Source: Cyclobacteriaceae bacterium (lineage in GTDB: Bacteria; Bacteroidota; Bacteroidia; Cytophagales; Cyclobacteriaceae). Taken from it: a DNA stretch of 64,000 nt. The notes below the pieces were generated by a model, which saw only the letters and a list, made by a program, of their open reading frames with translations, searched no databases and had not been told where the DNA came from. Of this stretch, positions 27,672 to 36,782 are shown piece after piece; positions within the stretch are counted from its first letter, which is position 1; every line of letters starts with the position of its first letter. The stretch is taken from positions 248,001 through 312,000 of the forward strand of contig JAEUUF010000013.1 in assembly GCA_016787645.1 (NCBI GenBank), in the 5' to 3' direction. Position numbers and translations under genes: made by a program.

Positions 27672-27710
27672 TACTAAATATTTTACTATTTGATACTAAT
27701 ATTTTTAGTA
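27672..27710 (+). promoter_or_regulatory. Cluster of TACTA half-sites before dinB (candidate operator/promoter)
   Basis: In an AT-rich 55-bp gap, TACTA occurs at 27672, 27684 and 27694, and its complement TAGTA at 27706. The last two form a perfect inverted repeat TACTAA-N5-TTAGTA (27694-27710). Spacings of 10-12 bp put the half-sites on one DNA face. Ten nt separate the last from the dinB ATG, so a bound protein would block transcription or initiation. This is what an SOS-like repressor site could look like; no LexA-type gene is visible in the window. Confidence 0.55.
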
Positions 27711-27720
27711 TTATTACGGC

Positions 27721-28920
27721 ATGGACAGGAACATCATCCATCTGGACCTGGATGCCTTTTTTGTGGCCGTAGAGCGGAAAAACAACCCCAAGCTCAACGG
27801 GAGGCCCCTGATTGTCGGGGGGAGCAGCCGCCGCGGGGTGGTGGCTGCCTGTAGCTACGAGGCCCGCCGCTTCGGGGTGCACTCGGCCATGCCCATGTAC
27901 CTGGCCATGCAACTCTGCCCCGATGCCACCGTCGTCTCCGGCGATGTGGAAGCCTACAGCCAGCACTCCCACCTGGTCACCGAAGTGATCGCCGACAGCG
28001 CGCCGCTCTTCGAGAAAGCCTCCATCGATGAATTTTACATCGACGCCAGCGGTATGGACCGCTACTTCGGGGCCTTCCAGTGGGCGGTGGAGCTTCGCCA
28101 GAAAATCATGCGCGAAAGCCGCCTGCCGATCTCGCTGGGCATGTCCGTCAACAAGCTCGTCTCCAAAGTGGCCACGGGCGAGTTCAAGCCCAATGCCGAG
28201 AAACTCATCCCCGCGGGCACGGAAAAAGAATTCCTCGCCCCGCTGTCGGTCGACAAGATTCCGATGATCGGAAAGCAGACCTCCTCCTTTCTCTACGACA
28301 TGGGCGTGCGCACGGTGGCGACCTTGCGCGAGATGCCGCCAAAATTCCTCGTCAGCGCTTTTGGCAAAAACGGGCTGTCGCTCTGGAACAAAGCCCACGC
28401 CCTCGACGATTCGCCCGTGGTGCCCTACACCGAGCAGAAATCCATTTCCACGGAAAGCACCTTCGAGGAAGACACCATCGATGTGAAGCGCCTGAAGTCG
28501 ATCCTCATCGCCATGGTGGAAAAAGTCACCTTCCAGCTGCGCGAGCAGAAGAAGCTGGCTTCGTGCATCACCGTAAAGATCCGGTACTCCAATTTCGACA
28601 CGGAGACCAAGCAGGTGCACGTGCCTTACACATCCTCCGACGGTTTTGTATTGCGTACCGTGCTGGAGTTGTTCGACAAGCTTTACAACCGCCGCCTGCT
28701 CATCCGGCTCGTGGGCGTGCGCCTCAGCGGGCTCGTCTTCGGCAACCACCAGATCAGCCTCTTCGATGATACAGAAGAAGACATCAACCTCTACGAGGCG
28801 ATTGATTACATCAAGCACAAGCACGGATCGGACAAACTCATGCGGGCCACTACGCTGGGCGTGGGACGGCGCGTACGGATGGAGATGAACATGTTTAATG
28901 GAAGAATAATCAAACTTTAA
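27721..28920 (+). CDS. dinB: Y-family DNA polymerase (Pol IV type)
   Basis: 399 aa. Catalytic carboxylates: D9 and the LDLDAFF motif, then D103-E104 in SIDEFYID. RGVVAACSYEARRFGVHSAM is the fingers segment. The thumb has a KMIG-like helix-hairpin-helix (VDKIPMIGKQTSSF), and the little-finger domain follows. Near the C-terminus QISLF (344-348) matches the beta-clamp-binding consensus, so it should be recruited by the sliding clamp. It performs translesion synthesis. First gene of a same-strand cluster (27.7-36.8 kb) with two atypical proteins, RecQ and a second error-prone-type polymerase; it begins directly behind the TACTA cluster. Confidence 0.95.
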   Translation: MDRNIIHLDLDAFFVAVERKNNPKLNGRPLIVGGSSRRGVVAACSYEARRFGVHSAMPMYLAMQLCPDATVVSGDVEAYSQHSHLVTEVIADSAPLFEKASIDEFYIDASGMDRYFGAFQWAVELRQKIMRESRLPISLGMSVNKLVSKVATGEFKPNAEKLIPAGTEKEFLAPLSVDKIPMIGKQTSSFLYDMGVRTVATLREMPPKFLVSAFGKNGLSLWNKAHALDDSPVVPYTEQKSISTESTFEEDTIDVKRLKSILIAMVEKVTFQLREQKKLASCITVKIRYSNFDTETKQVHVPYTSSDGFVLRTVLELFDKLYNRRLLIRLVGVRLSGLVFGNHQISLFDDTEEDINLYEAIDYIKHKHGSDKLMRATTLGVGRRVRMEMNMFNGRIIKL

Positions 28921-28933
28921 ATGGTTAAAACGT

Positions 28934-29455
28934 ATGGAAACGAAAGCATCCAATGAATTGCTCTTCATCATCTCGCCGCCGCCGGCCATCGCGGAATATG
29001 TCGCGATGCTCAAGCAGCATGTCCGGCTGGCCATCGGGCATCCTTTCGAGGATGAATTTGCCAAGGCCCACATCTCCCTGTTTCGCTACCGCGATGCCCG
29101 TCCCGAAGACTGGCTCTACCAGGTCGACTCGAAAATCGCGTCCTTCGCGCCCTTTCATGTGCACGTCAAGAACCTGAATTTCTACGATCACGGGACCACG
29201 CGCACCATTTACCTGGAGGTGGTGCATAAAAATCCCATCTGCGAGATCGTCGAGCGGCTGGGGCAGCCGGAGGGAGAATTCACTCCCTACATCACCATCG
29301 CCAGCAACCTGGACATCAACGACTTTATAAAAGCGTGGATGAGCCTTAAGAATCTATCTTACAGTGATTACTTCCGATGTGATCATATTACCGTACTGAA
29401 GAAGAAAGCGGCGAGGAGATGGACGTACTATATGGATTTGTCGTTTGCGGCTTAG
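28934..29455 (+). CDS. 2H phosphoesterase / 2'-5' RNA ligase-like protein with one degenerate motif
   Basis: 173 aa, consistent with the LigT/2H fold. The first catalytic H-x-S is intact (H46-I-S48 in AKAHISLF). At the place of the second H-x-T the sequence is Y119-I-T121 (in EFTPYITIASN), where the family usually has PHIT. One base (CAC to TAC) accounts for this change. The protein may have lost 2',3'-cyclic/2'-5' phosphodiesterase activity or kept only nucleotide binding. It starts 13 nt after dinB, so co-expression with the polymerase is likely. Its role in DNA damage response is unknown. Confidence 0.8.
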   Translation: METKASNELLFIISPPPAIAEYVAMLKQHVRLAIGHPFEDEFAKAHISLFRYRDARPEDWLYQVDSKIASFAPFHVHVKNLNFYDHGTTRTIYLEVVHKNPICEIVERLGQPEGEFTPYITIASNLDINDFIKAWMSLKNLSYSDYFRCDHITVLKKKAARRWTYYMDLSFAA

Positions 29456-29481
29456 CCCTAGGTTTTCTAAATTAATGTTAT

Positions 29482-30606
29482 ATGCCTAAACAAGATGTAA
29501 AAAGAAATCTACTAGAACATTCGGCTGTAAAAGTTCGGTTGCTAGGGATATATCTTAAGAGGTACCTGAATATTATTTCAAACGACGGGTATACTGAGAA
29601 AATCTGGATTCATGATCTTTTTTGCGGAGAAGGAATTTATGAGAACGGTGGCGAAGGAAGCCCCCTGGTTATACTTAGAGAAGTCAAGGATTTGCACTTC
29701 ACTGGCGTTGCTAGAGACAAAAAGGGGCCACTAATTGATTGCCACTTCAATGATCTTGAAGGTGAAAAAGTTAAAAAAGTTGAGGCGTCAATCAAGGTTA
29801 AATCATTGTACTATCCCCGTTTCGGTGGATTGCGATTTACAACCAACGACTACAAGCAGGAGGTCAAGGAGTTGATTGACACTCTTCCAAAACTTAAGAA
29901 ACAAAAAGCATTCATCTTCATAGATCCTTACGACTACAAAAGCATTAAGGCAAATGACATAAAAGATCTACTCGCAAGTGGAAAGGCAGAGGTTCTTCTG
30001 TTTCTCCCGACACAATTTATGTACAGATTCCATGCTAATGGAACTCCGGAGGCTTTGAAAGATTTTATTGAAGAGCTCACCGAATACAAGAACTGGCGAG
30101 AAAATGACTCCCCTTGGAGCTTCATTGATCAATTAAAGGAAGCTTTCCGAGCCTTTTTGGGGTCAAGATTCTTCGTTGACACTTTTACGATTCAAAAGGA
30201 TAGTAACACAGTTTTCTGCCTCTTCTTCTTTTCTTCACATATAAAGGGGTTCGAAAAAATGCTCGAGGCTAAGTGGGAAATAGATACAGAACAAGGAAAA
30301 GGCTGGCACTTTAGTGGCAATAACCCAACCCTTTTCTTTGATCAAAAAACAAATGGCTTCCAAGACATGCTAAAGGCCTTTCTTACAACTAAGGCTAGAA
30401 CAAACGGTGAAGTCTATGAATTCACGCTTCGATCCGGCTTTCTCCCAAAACACGCAAACGAAATCTTGCACAATTGGCAGCAGACTGGTCTCCTAAAAGT
30501 AAATGGCCGGAACTCTGAAAAGGTTCGAAAAAGATCTTTCTACCTTGGCTATCAGTATTACAAGGATGACAATGACAAACAGAAAGTTTCATTCAAACTG
30601 AATTAA
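29482..30606 (+). CDS. tcmP: Three-Cys-motif partner protein TcmP
   Basis: 374 aa. N-terminal half is methyltransferase-like: WIHDLFCGEGIYENGGEGSP (the D-F-G-G loop typical of TcmP) and AFIFIDPYDYKSI (a DPY/F motif of the kind used by base-modifying enzymes). The C-terminal third (~290-374) resembles a winged-helix segment (KHANEILHNWQQTGLLKVNG). TcmP proteins are named for their steady pairing with the three-Cys-motif (Gp37/Gp68) protein, which follows here after 3 nt. The gene is clearly AT-richer than its neighbours (about 40 % GC in lines I counted, against about 60 % in dinB), pointing to a separate origin. Biochemical function unknown. Confidence 0.88.
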   Translation: MPKQDVKRNLLEHSAVKVRLLGIYLKRYLNIISNDGYTEKIWIHDLFCGEGIYENGGEGSPLVILREVKDLHFTGVARDKKGPLIDCHFNDLEGEKVKKVEASIKVKSLYYPRFGGLRFTTNDYKQEVKELIDTLPKLKKQKAFIFIDPYDYKSIKANDIKDLLASGKAEVLLFLPTQFMYRFHANGTPEALKDFIEELTEYKNWRENDSPWSFIDQLKEAFRAFLGSRFFVDTFTIQKDSNTVFCLFFFSSHIKGFEKMLEAKWEIDTEQGKGWHFSGNNPTLFFDQKTNGFQDMLKAFLTTKARTNGEVYEFTLRSGFLPKHANEILHNWQQTGLLKVNGRNSEKVRKRSFYLGYQYYKDDNDKQKVSFKLN

Positions 30607-30609
30607 GTC

Positions 30610-31365
30610 ATGGCACAATCCTCCATCGAATGGACCGAAATGACGTGGAACCCGACCACGGGCTGCAACAAGATCTCTGCGGGGTGCAAGTTCTGCTACG
30701 CGGAGGTGATGACACGCCGGTTGAAAGCCATGGGCGTAGAAAAGTACCAGAAAGGCTTCAAGATCGCCGTACATGACCGCGAACTCGACCTCCCCTACAC
30801 CTGGAAAACCCCAAAGATTGTTTTTGTGAACTCCATGAGCGATCTCTTTCATGAGGACATTTCCCTGGAGTTCATTCAGAAGGTATTCAAAGTCATGAAT
30901 GACAACCCGCAGCATACGTTTCAGGTCTTGACGAAACGCTCCGAGCGGCTGGCTCAATTTCATGCGGAATTAAACTGGACACCTAATATCTGGATGGGCG
31001 TTTCCATTGAAGATGACCGGGTAATTCATCGTTTGGCTGACCTGAAAAAATCTTCTGCACTCGTCAAGTTCCTCTCTTGCGAACCCCTTATCGGTCCGCT
31101 ACAAAACCTCGACCTGAGGGGTATCGACTGGGTAATTGTAGGCGGAGAATCAGGAAAACGAAAAATCCGGCCGATGAAACCGGAATGGGTACTGGATATC
31201 AAGTCCCAATGCCGAAAATACAATGTGGCTTTCTTCTTCAAGCAATGGGGAGGTACCAACAAAAAGAAAACCGGCCGACTGTTGAAGGGCAGAACCTACG
31301 ATGAAATGCCCAAAAGAAACGTAAAACGAAGGCAAAGCATGCCCGCCGCCGGCATTGCGGCGTAG
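30610..31365 (+). CDS. Three-Cys-motif protein (phage Gp37/Gp68 family, DUF5131), radical-SAM-like
   Basis: 251 aa. The N-terminus IEWTEMTWNPTTGCNKISAG and following CKFCYAE give C19-x6-C26-x2-C29, a variant of the radical-SAM CxxxCxxC cluster. NSMSDLFHEDI, QVLTKRSERL, NIWMGVSIED, FLSCEPLIGP and VGGESGKRKIRPM are the family's conserved blocks. The basic C-terminus (KRNVKRRQSMP) could bind nucleic acid. Members occur in phages and chromosomes with TcmP, often near DNA repair genes; the reaction is not established. GC returns to the local average here, unlike tcmP. Confidence 0.9.
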   Translation: MAQSSIEWTEMTWNPTTGCNKISAGCKFCYAEVMTRRLKAMGVEKYQKGFKIAVHDRELDLPYTWKTPKIVFVNSMSDLFHEDISLEFIQKVFKVMNDNPQHTFQVLTKRSERLAQFHAELNWTPNIWMGVSIEDDRVIHRLADLKKSSALVKFLSCEPLIGPLQNLDLRGIDWVIVGGESGKRKIRPMKPEWVLDIKSQCRKYNVAFFFKQWGGTNKKKTGRLLKGRTYDEMPKRNVKRRQSMPAAGIAA

Positions 31366-31425
31366 CCTTCCCTACAGTTCTTGCTTCACCTTGAGGCAAT
31401 CTTCTTCACGCGATTAATAAGTACT

Positions 31426-31468
31426 CAATTCTGGTTTCCGTGAAAATTTCATCCGGAAAACCAGATTG
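31426..31468. other. Long inverted repeat upstream of recQ
   Basis: CAATTCTGGTTTCCG and, 12 nt on, CGGAAAACCAGATTG: 15-nt arms that pair with one or two single-base bulges around TGAAAATTTCA, itself near-palindromic. It lies 61 nt past the three-Cys gene and ends 46 nt before the recQ ATG. No U-run follows on the plus strand. It could be a bidirectional hairpin separating two transcription units, or an operator. Confidence 0.6.
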
Positions 31469-31513
31469 CCCTGCACAACGATGATCCTTCATCTTAGCCG
31501 AAAAGAAAAATCC

Positions 31514-33661
<2,148 letters not shown>

Positions 33662-33737
33662 CGAACGTCAGCCTTTCAACTTCAATCAGGCTGAGACGAA
33701 GCAGCGGTGGGCGTAGACAAGTAGTAATTGGAATTTC

Positions 33738-36700
33738 ATGTATCTCAACTGTCACACCGCGTTTAGTTTCAAGTATGGCACCTTGTCGGTGCTGGCGCTG
33801 TTTAATGAAGCACGCCGGTGCGGAGTACACAAGCTGGTATTGACGGAGATCAACAACGTTTCGTCCTATATCGAAATGCTGCGGGTCTGCCAGGAGAACC
33901 GGCCCCTGCCCGGCAGCACACGCACGAAGTACGGCAAAGAAGGCTATGCCCTCGACCTGGCCCTGGGCATCGAATTCCGGCGTGACCATGAACTCCTCTA
34001 TATCGTTCTCGCCAAAGACAATGCGGGCTTCGAAGCCATCAACCGCTTCCTTTCCCATCACCATGCCGAGGGCAAGCCGCTGCCCACGCGGGCCCCTGAA
34101 CTTCCCCAAAGCCTGGTCCTCTATCCGTTCGGACGGATGGAGCCCGACCAGTTGCGGGAAAATGAGTTCATCGGCATCCGCATCCAGGAACTGACGACCT
34201 TCGCCTTCTACGCGCCATACAAAACACATCCCCACAAGTTTGTGGCGCTGCACCCTGTGACCTTTGCGAACCGGATCGACTTCAATACGCACCGGTTGTT
34301 GCGGGCCATCGACAAAAACACCTTGCTCAGCAAACTTCCTCCGCACGAACAGGCCAATCCCAACGAGATGATGATGCCCGAGGAAGAGCTGATCCGCCAC
34401 TATAAAGATTATCCTGCCCTCCTGGCCAACACCCGGCAGCTGATCGACCAGTGTCACATCGACTTTACCCTGGGGCAGGACAAAAACAAAAAGCACGTCA
34501 CGGGCAGTGAGACGAGCGACTGGGATGTACTGGTGACCAAATCCTGGGAAGGATTCCAGCAGCGCTACGATGTCAGCCAGCCGGAACTTCGCGAACGCAT
34601 CCAGCGCGAACTGAACATCATCCGGCAGAAAGGATTCATCGCCTATTACCTCATCGCCTACGACCTGATCCGCTTTGCCAAAGAGCGGGGCTTTGATTAC
34701 GTGGGGCGCGGCAGTGGGGCCAACAGTGTGGTGGCTTACTGCCTTGGAATTACCAACGTGGACCCCATTGAACTCGATCTCTATTTCGAACGATTCCTCA
34801 ACTCTGAACGCACCTCACCGCCGGACTTCGATATTGACTTTTCGTGGGACAACCGCGATGAGGTGTATGACTATTTCTTCTCCACCTACGGACGTGACCA
34901 CGTCTGCCTGTTGGGAACACACGTCACCTACCAGAAACGGTCGGTACTGCGCGAGCTGGGAAAAGTGTTTGGCCTGCCCAAGGAAGAGATCGACCTCATC
35001 GTGGAGGAGCCCGCCGCTCACCGCGACCGCGATCAGATCACGGAACTGATCTTCCGCTACGCCGACCGGATCAAGGACATGCCTGCGAACATTTCCATCC
35101 ATGCGGGCGGCGTACTGATCACCGAAAAACCCATCTACGCCTACACCGCCACCGAATTGCCACCCAAAGGATACCCGGTGTCACAGTTCGAGATGCACAA
35201 CGCCGAAGACATCGGCATCTTCAAGTTCGACATCCTCAGCCAGCGCGGCCTCGGCCACCTGAAGGAGGCGGCGCATCACGTAAAGCAAAATCAGGGCGTG
35301 GACGTGGACATCCACCGGTTCGTCGACTTTAAGAAAGATGAAAAAATCCGGGAGCTGCTGCGCAACAGTAAAGCGATGGGCTGCTTCTATGTTGAATCAC
35401 CCGCTATGCGTATGCTGCTGGGAAAACTCCGCTGCGAAGACTACCTGACGCTGGTGGCGGCCAGCAGTATCATCCGTCCCGGTGTGGCCCGGTCGGGCAT
35501 GATGCGCGCCTACATCGAACGGTTTCACGCCGTGCGAAACGGAAAGACTTACGAGTCCATCCACCCGGCCATGGACGAACTCATGCGGGAGACGTATGGC
35601 GTCATGGTGTACCAGGAGGACGTGATTAAGGTGGCCCATCACTTTGCCGGCCTCACCCTGACCGAAGCAGACGTGCTGCGGCGCGGAATGTCCGGCAAGT
35701 ACCGGTCACGTGATGAGTTCAGACGGGTCGAAGAGCGTTTTTTTGAAAACTGCCGGGCCCGGGGATACCCGCAAAAAGTGATCGACCGGGTGTGGTATGA
35801 GATTGAAAGTTTTTCCGGGTACTCCTTTTCGAAGGGACATTCGGCCAGCTACGCTGTGGAAAGTTACCAGAGCCTGTTCCTCAAAGCCCATTACCCGCTG
35901 GAGTTCATGGTGGGCGTCATCAACAATTTCGGCGGCTTTTACCGGACCGAGTTTTACTTCCACGAGGCGCGCATGAACGGCGCGACCATCGAAGCGCCAA
36001 GCCTCAACCAGAGCAATTACCTCACTACGATACTCGGCAAGACCATTTATATTGGCTTCATCCACCTGAAAAGCCTGGAGGTGAAAATCGCCAAGCACAT
36101 TGCCGTGGACCGCGAACGGCAAGGGCCCTATCGCAGCCTTGATAATTTCCTCCGCCGCACCCCCGGTATCGGTCTCGAACAGGTGCGTCTGCTCATCCGT
36201 GTCGGAGCCTTTCGGTTCACCGGGAAATCCAAACAGAAACTATTGTGGGAGGCCATGCTTTACTTCAGCAGTGTACAAGCCAAACCAGTCAGCACCGAAG
36301 TACTTTTTGACACGGAGCCCAAGCACTATCCACTCCCCGTCTTGCAGCGCAACGAGCTCGAAGACGCGTTTGACGAAATTGAGTTGCTGGGCTTCCCGCT
36401 CTGCGATCCATTCAAACTGTTGCAAACCACTGACTACGGAGACACCACGGCACGTGATCTTCCCCGGAAAATCAACCGTCGCGTGCGGATCGTCGGGTAC
36501 GTGGTGACCACCAAAGACACCGCCACCCTCAAGGGAGAGCCTATGCATTTCGGAACCTTCTACGACGCCCAGGGTGAAGTCTTTGACAGTGTTCATTTCC
36601 CGGACATCGCGCGCAAATACCCGTTCCGCGGCCGGGGATTCTATGAAATGAAAGGAAAAGTCGTTGACGATTTTGGTGTGACCATGATTGAAGTTTCGTC

Positions 36701-36782
36701 GATGGAGAAATTGCCTATGGTACACAAGCGGCCTGAAGCGGCGGTCGCCGGCGATACCGGTAGTCCTAGAACTTCCGCTTAA
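33738..36782 (+). CDS. dnaE2: DNA polymerase III alpha subunit, short error-prone type (DnaE2/ImuC-like)
   Basis: 1014 aa, shorter than replicative DnaE (~1160). The palm catalytic motif PDFDIDFSW is at 362-370, with the GRGSGANSVVAYCLGIT fingers motif before it; HAGGVLI and SFSKGHSASYAVESYQ follow. The PHP domain at the N-terminus reads YLNCHTAFSFKYGTLS where active PHP domains have H-x-H...DG, so the metal site is incomplete. The C-terminus has helix-hairpin-helix and OB-fold (RRVRIVGYVVTTKD). Together with dinB in the same cluster it suggests a mutagenic translesion pair, though no ImuB/ImuA is present. Its 3' end overlaps the convergent receptor gene by 17 nt. Confidence 0.9.
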   Translation: MYLNCHTAFSFKYGTLSVLALFNEARRCGVHKLVLTEINNVSSYIEMLRVCQENRPLPGSTRTKYGKEGYALDLALGIEFRRDHELLYIVLAKDNAGFEAINRFLSHHHAEGKPLPTRAPELPQSLVLYPFGRMEPDQLRENEFIGIRIQELTTFAFYAPYKTHPHKFVALHPVTFANRIDFNTHRLLRAIDKNTLLSKLPPHEQANPNEMMMPEEELIRHYKDYPALLANTRQLIDQCHIDFTLGQDKNKKHVTGSETSDWDVLVTKSWEGFQQRYDVSQPELRERIQRELNIIRQKGFIAYYLIAYDLIRFAKERGFDYVGRGSGANSVVAYCLGITNVDPIELDLYFERFLNSERTSPPDFDIDFSWDNRDEVYDYFFSTYGRDHVCLLGTHVTYQKRSVLRELGKVFGLPKEEIDLIVEEPAAHRDRDQITELIFRYADRIKDMPANISIHAGGVLITEKPIYAYTATELPPKGYPVSQFEMHNAEDIGIFKFDILSQRGLGHLKEAAHHVKQNQGVDVDIHRFVDFKKDEKIRELLRNSKAMGCFYVESPAMRMLLGKLRCEDYLTLVAASSIIRPGVARSGMMRAYIERFHAVRNGKTYESIHPAMDELMRETYGVMVYQEDVIKVAHHFAGLTLTEADVLRRGMSGKYRSRDEFRRVEERFFENCRARGYPQKVIDRVWYEIESFSGYSFSKGHSASYAVESYQSLFLKAHYPLEFMVGVINNFGGFYRTEFYFHEARMNGATIEAPSLNQSNYLTTILGKTIYIGFIHLKSLEVKIAKHIAVDRERQGPYRSLDNFLRRTPGIGLEQVRLLIRVGAFRFTGKSKQKLLWEAMLYFSSVQAKPVSTEVLFDTEPKHYPLPVLQRNELEDAFDEIELLGFPLCDPFKLLQTTDYGDTTARDLPRKINRRVRIVGYVVTTKDTATLKGEPMHFGTFYDAQGEVFDSVHFPDIARKYPFRGRGFYEMKGKVVDDFGVTMIEVSSMEKLPMVHKRPEAAVAGDTGSPRTSA

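Follow-up and report, generated by a model that had tools for sequence, protein, structure and literature searches.

Do the six genes that run from dinB to dnaE in this DNA form one conserved repair machine, or does a polymerase operon here carry cargo that moves on its own? The stretch analyzed (the window) is 64,000 nucleotides long and corresponds to G000:C15:248001-312000 of a 4.0-Mb Cyclobacteriaceae genome. The genes encode a Y-family polymerase (dinB), a 2H-fold protein, TcmP, a DUF5131 protein, RecQ and a DnaE2-like polymerase (dnaE). Open reading frame (ORF) calls and family matches from profile searches show that all six are real, that they lie on the + strand in this order, and that within the window no unrelated gene interrupts them, as the initial annotation had stated; the gaps from dinB to dnaE are 13, 26, 3, 145 and 76 base pairs (bp). 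That annotation took TcmP and DUF5131 to be lesion-repair partners of the two polymerases. The reading preferred here, with a probability of roughly 0.5, is that an SOS-controlled PolY-DnaE2 mutasome operon contains a slot holding the 2H gene, a cassette-type recQ and a separately mobile TcmP-DUF5131 module, and that the six genes are not one conserved machine.

Between dinB and dnaE lies a variable slot for exchangeable cargo. Besides the window, 29 dinB-dnaE cassettes of the genus have the whole interval visible; another five loci are incomplete. The 2H gene is present in seven of the 29, a RAYT-like gene (Y1) in eight, the cassette recQ in four, and tcmP with DUF5131 in one (G029). Fifteen cassettes have none of these genes; three of them hold other called ORFs (one in G017, four in G032, where outer-membrane-type ORFs fill the slot, and one of 63 amino acids in G038). 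The six-gene set of the window is found in none of the 29, and the cargo is scattered over the dnaE and dinB trees. Other genera of the family have the order dinB-2H-dnaE (G078, G125) or dinB-Y1-2H-dnaE (G279).

The TcmP-DUF5131 pair is mobile cargo that moves independently of the polymerase operon. In the window, tcmP (29482-30606, + strand; TIGR04474, 144.3 bits against a curated cut-off of 53) is followed by the DUF5131 gene (30610-31365, + strand; phage Gp37/Gp68 family, PF07505, 325.9 bits against a curated cut-off of 28.9). Twenty-one loci from other genomes were fetched by TcmP similarity, with flanks of anything between a few bases and 10 kb. DUF5131 stands directly after tcmP in 20 of them, and in L016, where the contig stops, the first DUF5131 residues are still visible. 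Within these flanks, some of them short, no homologue of dinB, the 2H gene, recQ or dnaE is found at any of the 21 loci. The conservation of the set that an integrated cassette calls for is therefore lacking both in the genus and at the TcmP loci. With the thresholds applied here, the TcmP proteins form eight clusters. A pair with type T1 is 94.8% identical in DNA over 1,915 bp between two genomes (L004 and L070), a match that barely exceeds the two genes. Of 50,697 phage records, 159 contain a DUF5131 match; for plasmids the figure is 405 of 72,556. Four phage or plasmid regions were opened: two phages have TcmP convergent to DUF5131, one of them beside a repressor and an integrase, a Hymenobacter plasmid has TcmP-DUF5131 in tandem, and a Mycobacterium phage has DUF5131 without an annotated TcmP. 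A tblastn search for Type I TcmP in phages gave no match; more distant TcmPs adjoin the phage DUF5131 genes.

The close neighbors of the pair include restriction and DNA-methylase genes. The neighbor census covers 68 pairs, 64 of which have a called upstream gene, and in 12 of these 64 a same-strand gene lies at most 70 bp upstream. Seven of the 12 encode type I R or S subunits (four) or N6/N4 DNA methylases (three, one scored as type III); the others are a dCMP-deaminase-family protein, a glycosidase, a DUF5677-like protein just under the cut-off and two unscanned genes. A type I R subunit also directly precedes the tcmP of L149, a locus not counted among the 68, as its DUF5131 is uncalled. 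Among 125 wider neighbors no family has more than four members, and restriction, methylase, Fic and HD/dGTPase models are among the commonest.

Several single neighbors can be described. The dCMP-deaminase-family protein of L111 (4600-6456) has 619 amino acids and is encoded 1 bp upstream of tcmP. An HD-domain protein is encoded 32 bp 3' of DUF5131 in L105, and an ExoVII-large-subunit-like protein 36 bp 3' of it in L064. Repeats of about 80-120 bp are found 3' of DUF5131 and elsewhere nearby in L070, L071 (G061) and L004. By eye they look like imperfect palindromes, and they may be attC-like mobility sites or sites like those of miniature inverted-repeat transposable elements.

TcmP type associates randomly with DUF5131: TcmP is freely exchanged, and DUF5131 is more constant. 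The DUF5131 partners of TcmP types T1-T5 are 57-74% identical to the window copy, mostly about 70%. On a DUF5131 tree with 41 tips, 18 switches of TcmP type are counted, and shuffled labels give a mean of 18.2 and a range of 15-19. This result calls for caution, because T1 accounts for 22 tips and a T1 query brought in 18 of these. In G061, two DUF5131 genes with unrelated TcmP partners have 96.4% DNA identity from the start codon onward; likewise, two in G250 are 91.6% identical from 13 bp before the start codon. The DUF5131 proteins of the window and G029 are sisters in the tree, and their TcmPs (T1 and T2) share no BLAST match, so the pair may have entered the slot once and had its TcmP exchanged afterwards. 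Base composition differs as well. The GC content at third codon positions (GC3) of tcmP is below the median of its neighbors in 45 of 50 pairs and below that of DUF5131 in 39 of 50; in the window it is 0.421 for tcmP, 0.627 for DUF5131 and 0.713-0.812 for the other four genes.

The core of the operon is, judging from its sequences, a DNA-damage-type PolY-DnaE2 polymerase operon of a known kind. DinB (27721-28920, + strand; IMS/DinB family, PF00817/PF11799) has D9, D103 and E104, which are invariant in an alignment of 57 homologues, and the clamp-like motif proposed by the initial annotation is present as QISLF at residues 344-348. The error-prone DnaE (33738-36782, + strand; identified by profile matches) has catalytic residues D365, D367 and D498, invariant in all 53 sequences. 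Both translesion polymerases are thus apparently active, as had been supposed. An identity as ImuB is ruled out for the Y-family protein, since its catalytic residues are kept, and no ImuA or ImuB gene lies within the operon. From residue 364 DinB has a RecA-NT-like tail, IKHKHGSDKLMR, in which the Gly (G369) is invariant in 57 of 57 homologues and the Arg is found in 48 of 57. The likeness to RecA was judged by eye on the alignment, and a strict RecA-NT regular expression matches only 8 of 56 DinB tails.

An operon of this type is a correct alternative to imuAB-dnaE2, as first proposed, but it is not a novel one. Timinskas and Venclovas described active Bacteroidetes PolY beside DnaE2 without ImuA, and also the RecA-NT motif, in 2019 (PMC6511836), and a putative DnaE2B-PolY-RecA mutasome was named in 2026 (PMC12926913). 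The window operon resembles this mutasome in having an active Y-family polymerase by an active DnaE2, adjacent or with cargo between, in an operon without ImuA/ImuB, and in the RecA-NT-like tail. It differs in that its genus has a variable cargo slot between the polymerases; cargo is not mentioned in the accessible parts of either paper. It shares with the ImuA-ImuB-DnaE2 cassette an SOS-type operon that ends in an error-prone DnaE, but its Y-family protein is catalytically intact and the ImuA and ImuB genes are absent from the operon. An extra dinB-dnaE cassette, or an extra dnaE on its own, is present in some genomes (L032 of G015, L080 of G279, L061 of G043), and in L081 (9883-11079; G312) a DUF763 protein (456 bits) is encoded directly downstream of dnaE on the same strand.

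The position and conservation of a LexA-type box point to SOS control of the operon. The Bacteroidetes LexA motif is CTAA-N5-TTAG (PMC8565304), and its sole exact copy in the window, CTAATATTTTTAG at 27696-27708 (+ strand), lies 12 bp upstream of the dinB ATG. The count is unremarkable (0.42 expected, and 33 of 100 shuffles carry at least one), and the box is counted as evidence because of where it lies and how well it is conserved. An exact box is found in 29 of 30 dinB upstream regions of the genus, G024 being without it, versus a Markov-shuffle expectation of 0.9%. The extended form ACTAA-N5-TTAGT occurs at four places in the genome of the window, two of them in tandem upstream of an ORF of 83 amino acids that is followed by a gene for an S24/helix-turn-helix (HTH) LexA-like repressor. 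The Bacteroidetes LexA regulon (PMC8565304) is similar in both respects, with the motif upstream of dinB and an S24/HTH repressor with its own boxes, and the genes reported there include imuA-imuB-dnaE2 and RecQ; TcmP, DUF5131 and the 2H protein are not among the genes named in the accessible text. In family f11 (L087-L091) dinB is preceded by three GGA-N5-TCC boxes each, which is the other published Bacteroidetes SOS motif. A terminator and promoter scan of the locus gave results near the shuffled expectation. The 145-bp gap between DUF5131 and recQ (31366-31510) has one weak terminator-like hairpin at 31381-31399, which alone is no evidence, as the scanned region has 16 such sites against 12.1 expected.

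The link of the pair itself to DNA damage finds no support in co-conservation and gains some from elsewhere. Genomes of the order in which this DnaE2 is also present contain 12 DUF5131 loci, and three of these adjoin dinB/dnaE: the window and G029, both in the slot, and G291, of another genus, where a pair with type T6 TcmP (L094:1730-3573) stands directly after dnaE and convergent to it. The binomial P of this association is 2.4e-6, or 2.7e-4 without the window, and the slot cases of the window and G029 may go back to a single event. A LexA box lies within 200 bp of 4 of 39 stand-alone tcmP genes, against 2 of 222 background genes (p 0.005); of these two, one is divergent from a boxed tcmP. 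Seven control palindromes show no significant excess at the stand-alone tcmP genes. In a class-level set the box is found at 2 of 27 stand-alone tcmP genes versus 0 of 34.

The same results bear on the strongest rival, that the interval merely tolerates insertions and the pair works as an antiphage module, functionally unconnected with translesion synthesis. Two kinds of evidence favor it. Transposase-type RAYT-like proteins, and the outer-membrane-type ORFs of G032, also occupy the slot, and PADLOC lists the models of the pair as the candidate defense systems PDC-M30/PDC-M41. Both window genes match them strongly (TcmP 521 bits to PDC-M30A; DUF5131 408-419 bits to M30B/M41B), and PDC-M30 is predicted in 32 of 100 Pseudomonas aeruginosa strains, 68.8% of which are phage resistant (PMC10855318). 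The window pair differs from the PADLOC entries in sitting inside an SOS polymerase operon, and the antiphage role of those entries is that of a candidate only. Mere passage is also at odds with the strand and position of the pair, which keep it in the presumed SOS transcript with gaps of 26 and 3 bp, with the LexA boxes of some stand-alone pairs, and with an association with dinB/dnaE that is above chance, though its two slot cases may be a single event. This rival is unlikely. The literature search found no paper on the function of this widespread pair; where PDC-M30 or TcmP is named, the accessible text offers no mechanism, and a term search of the available text of PMC10853773 did not find TcmP named. 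A Sinorhizobium meliloti TcmP gene is tabled beside the phage-defense gene hna among upregulated genes (PMC12445080).

The predicted folds suggest that the pair acts on nucleic acids. TcmP is modeled as a class I methyltransferase fold with a C-terminal winged helix. Its top-ranked structural match, at 13-14% identity, is RlmJ (DUF519), the 23S rRNA m6A2030 methyltransferase. Motif IV of the RlmJ family is of the DPPY type; in the window TcmP it is FIDPY, with a single Pro, and the C-terminal winged helix is a further difference. The DUF5131 model appears to have a radical-SAM-like partial barrel, with an N-terminal three-Cys motif, like lipoyl synthase, spore photoproduct lyase and viperin. 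The canonical radical SAM motif is CX3CX2C, but all 71 DUF5131 sequences of at least 200 amino acids have CX6CX2C instead. A sequence-profile search of the PDB gave no credible relative of DUF5131 or TcmP.

The original proposal is that TcmP and DUF5131 are lesion-repair partners of both polymerases in an integrated cassette; one form of it would have TcmP guide a radical step like that of spore photoproduct lyase. Lipoyl synthase and viperin match the DUF5131 model as well as spore photoproduct lyase does. It would be odd for TcmP to be exchanged so freely if it served the repair of one fixed lesion, the six-gene set is not co-conserved, and the close neighbors of the pair include restriction and methylase genes, with no translesion gene seen at the 21 TcmP loci. 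An integrated cassette is unlikely on these grounds.

The remaining slot genes have their own distributions. The 2H gene (28934-29455, + strand) encodes a protein of the 2'-5' RNA ligase superfamily (2_5_RNA_ligase2, PF13563, 41.1 bits). It is found in 10 of the 78 genomes searched, always in the slot after dinB, from which a RAYT-like gene or piece separates it in G004 and G041; a more distant 2H gene, labeled by a custom profile, lies outside the slot in G179. An active 2H phosphoesterase is doubtful in the window, where the first motif is present as HISL and the second, YITI (PYITIA), has lost its catalytic His, leaving one of the two HxT/S motifs. This His is kept in 10 of 14 aligned homologues and lost in the window, G014, G078 and G125. 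Among slot copies the second His is replaced by Y, G or S (the window, L030, L077, L078), and in L037 the first is replaced by Y. The recQ gene (31511-33661, + strand; ATG at 31511 and an upstream TTG at 31466; TIGR01389, 717.9 bits) is a cassette-type paralogue, 61-67% identical to other slot copies; the other RecQ-family genes of this genome lie elsewhere and are 42% and 44% identical. The cassette type is found in 7 of the 78 genomes, all of the same genus, and always lies in the slot ahead of dnaE; in G041 an ORF of 81 amino acids is called between the two. A 54%-identical copy in G049, of another family, is in a 12-kb locus without dinB, dnaE or any other labeled gene. That the cargo consists of added mutasome subunits, with a His-deprived 2H protein as a structural part and TcmP or RecQ tuning access to the fork, agrees with the slot-bound positions of the 2H gene (10 of 10 matches) and cassette recQ (all seven genomes) and with the loss of either catalytic His in some 2H lineages, but it is quite improbable, since 15 of 29 cassettes lack all of these genes, so that the polymerases need none of them, and the more distant 2H gene of G179 is outside the slot.

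Further contents of the slot were observed. The slot of G152, from another genus of the family, codes for a DNA alkylation repair enzyme of the AlkD family (PF08713, 208 bits; L086:7978-8700) and has an opposite-strand ORF as well, and therefore the slot also accepts a recognized repair gene. A RAYT-like protein with MPNHIH/YIHLNP motifs recurs (L045:4419-4982, L027, L029, L042, L052, L053, L079 and others); the REP-associated tyrosine transposase model scores 65.3 bits on one such protein, below the cut-off of 80. Draft contigs break inside the slot at L024, L030, L038 and L051, the pattern that strain differences in the slot would give.

The data fit a mobile defense-type nucleic-acid module placed in an SOS polymerase operon. 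Upon DNA damage, cleavage of the S24/HTH LexA-like repressor would turn on expression of the whole operon. Lesions would be bypassed by DinB and DnaE together with RecA, and RecQ would open stalled forks. TcmP would bind S-adenosylmethionine (SAM) and nucleic acid through its methyltransferase domain and winged helix and set the target specificity, while DUF5131 would supply a constant [4Fe-4S]/SAM chemistry that modifies a base or removes a modification or lesion from it. The primary role of the module may be the marking or processing of DNA or RNA in phage conflict, a role proposed because some neighbors are restriction subunits, DNA methylases and, in one case, a phage repressor. Membership in the SOS operon would then switch the module on upon damage, prophage induction or the appearance of newly made unmodified DNA. 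The chemistry may be lesion repair, base modification or base demodification.

Several results weigh against this reading of a defense-type module in an SOS operon. With a close same-strand upstream gene in just 12 pairs, the restriction-modification link covers 7 of 64, and the close downstream neighbors are mixed: eight of 22, scanned singly, comprise a type I S subunit, an HD phosphohydrolase, an ExoVII-like protein, a DUF3644 protein, two transporters and two without a match. The extended LexA box is not enriched genome-wide (four places versus eight for a reversed control), and its remaining two places are the polymerase cassette and the inside of a gene. The exact box is found at just 6 of 66 stand-alone tcmP genes; two of the six are more than 120 bp away, the L006 box, among the first four, falls inside the gene upstream, and a looser background weakens the contrast to 4 of 41 versus 14 of 555. 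RlmJ is tied with histamine methyltransferase by the rule of the comparison tool, and the DUF5131 model is of middling confidence, its Cys loop (22-28) being below 50 in predicted local distance difference test (pLDDT). Contigs break off at the slot in the closest relatives, G014 and G040, and so cannot date the insertion; no DUF5131 is found in the two assemblies, that of G014 being 84% complete.

The exchange pattern, the neighbors, the LexA boxes and the folds together lead to a testable hypothesis: in conflict and in damage, nucleic acids would undergo radical chemistry directed by a partner protein. Stated in full, and held tentatively, TcmP-DUF5131 may be a new kind of two-component system for modifying or demodifying nucleic acids. 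A constant radical-SAM-like catalyst (CX6CX2C) would have its targets set by an exchangeable partner with a methyltransferase fold. The system would spread by swapping of the partner gene at the DUF5131 junction, and it would be wired to the SOS response in part of the Bacteroidota, including by insertion into PolY-DnaE2 operons. For these bacteria, a translesion polymerase operon can serve as a slot for exchangeable cargo.

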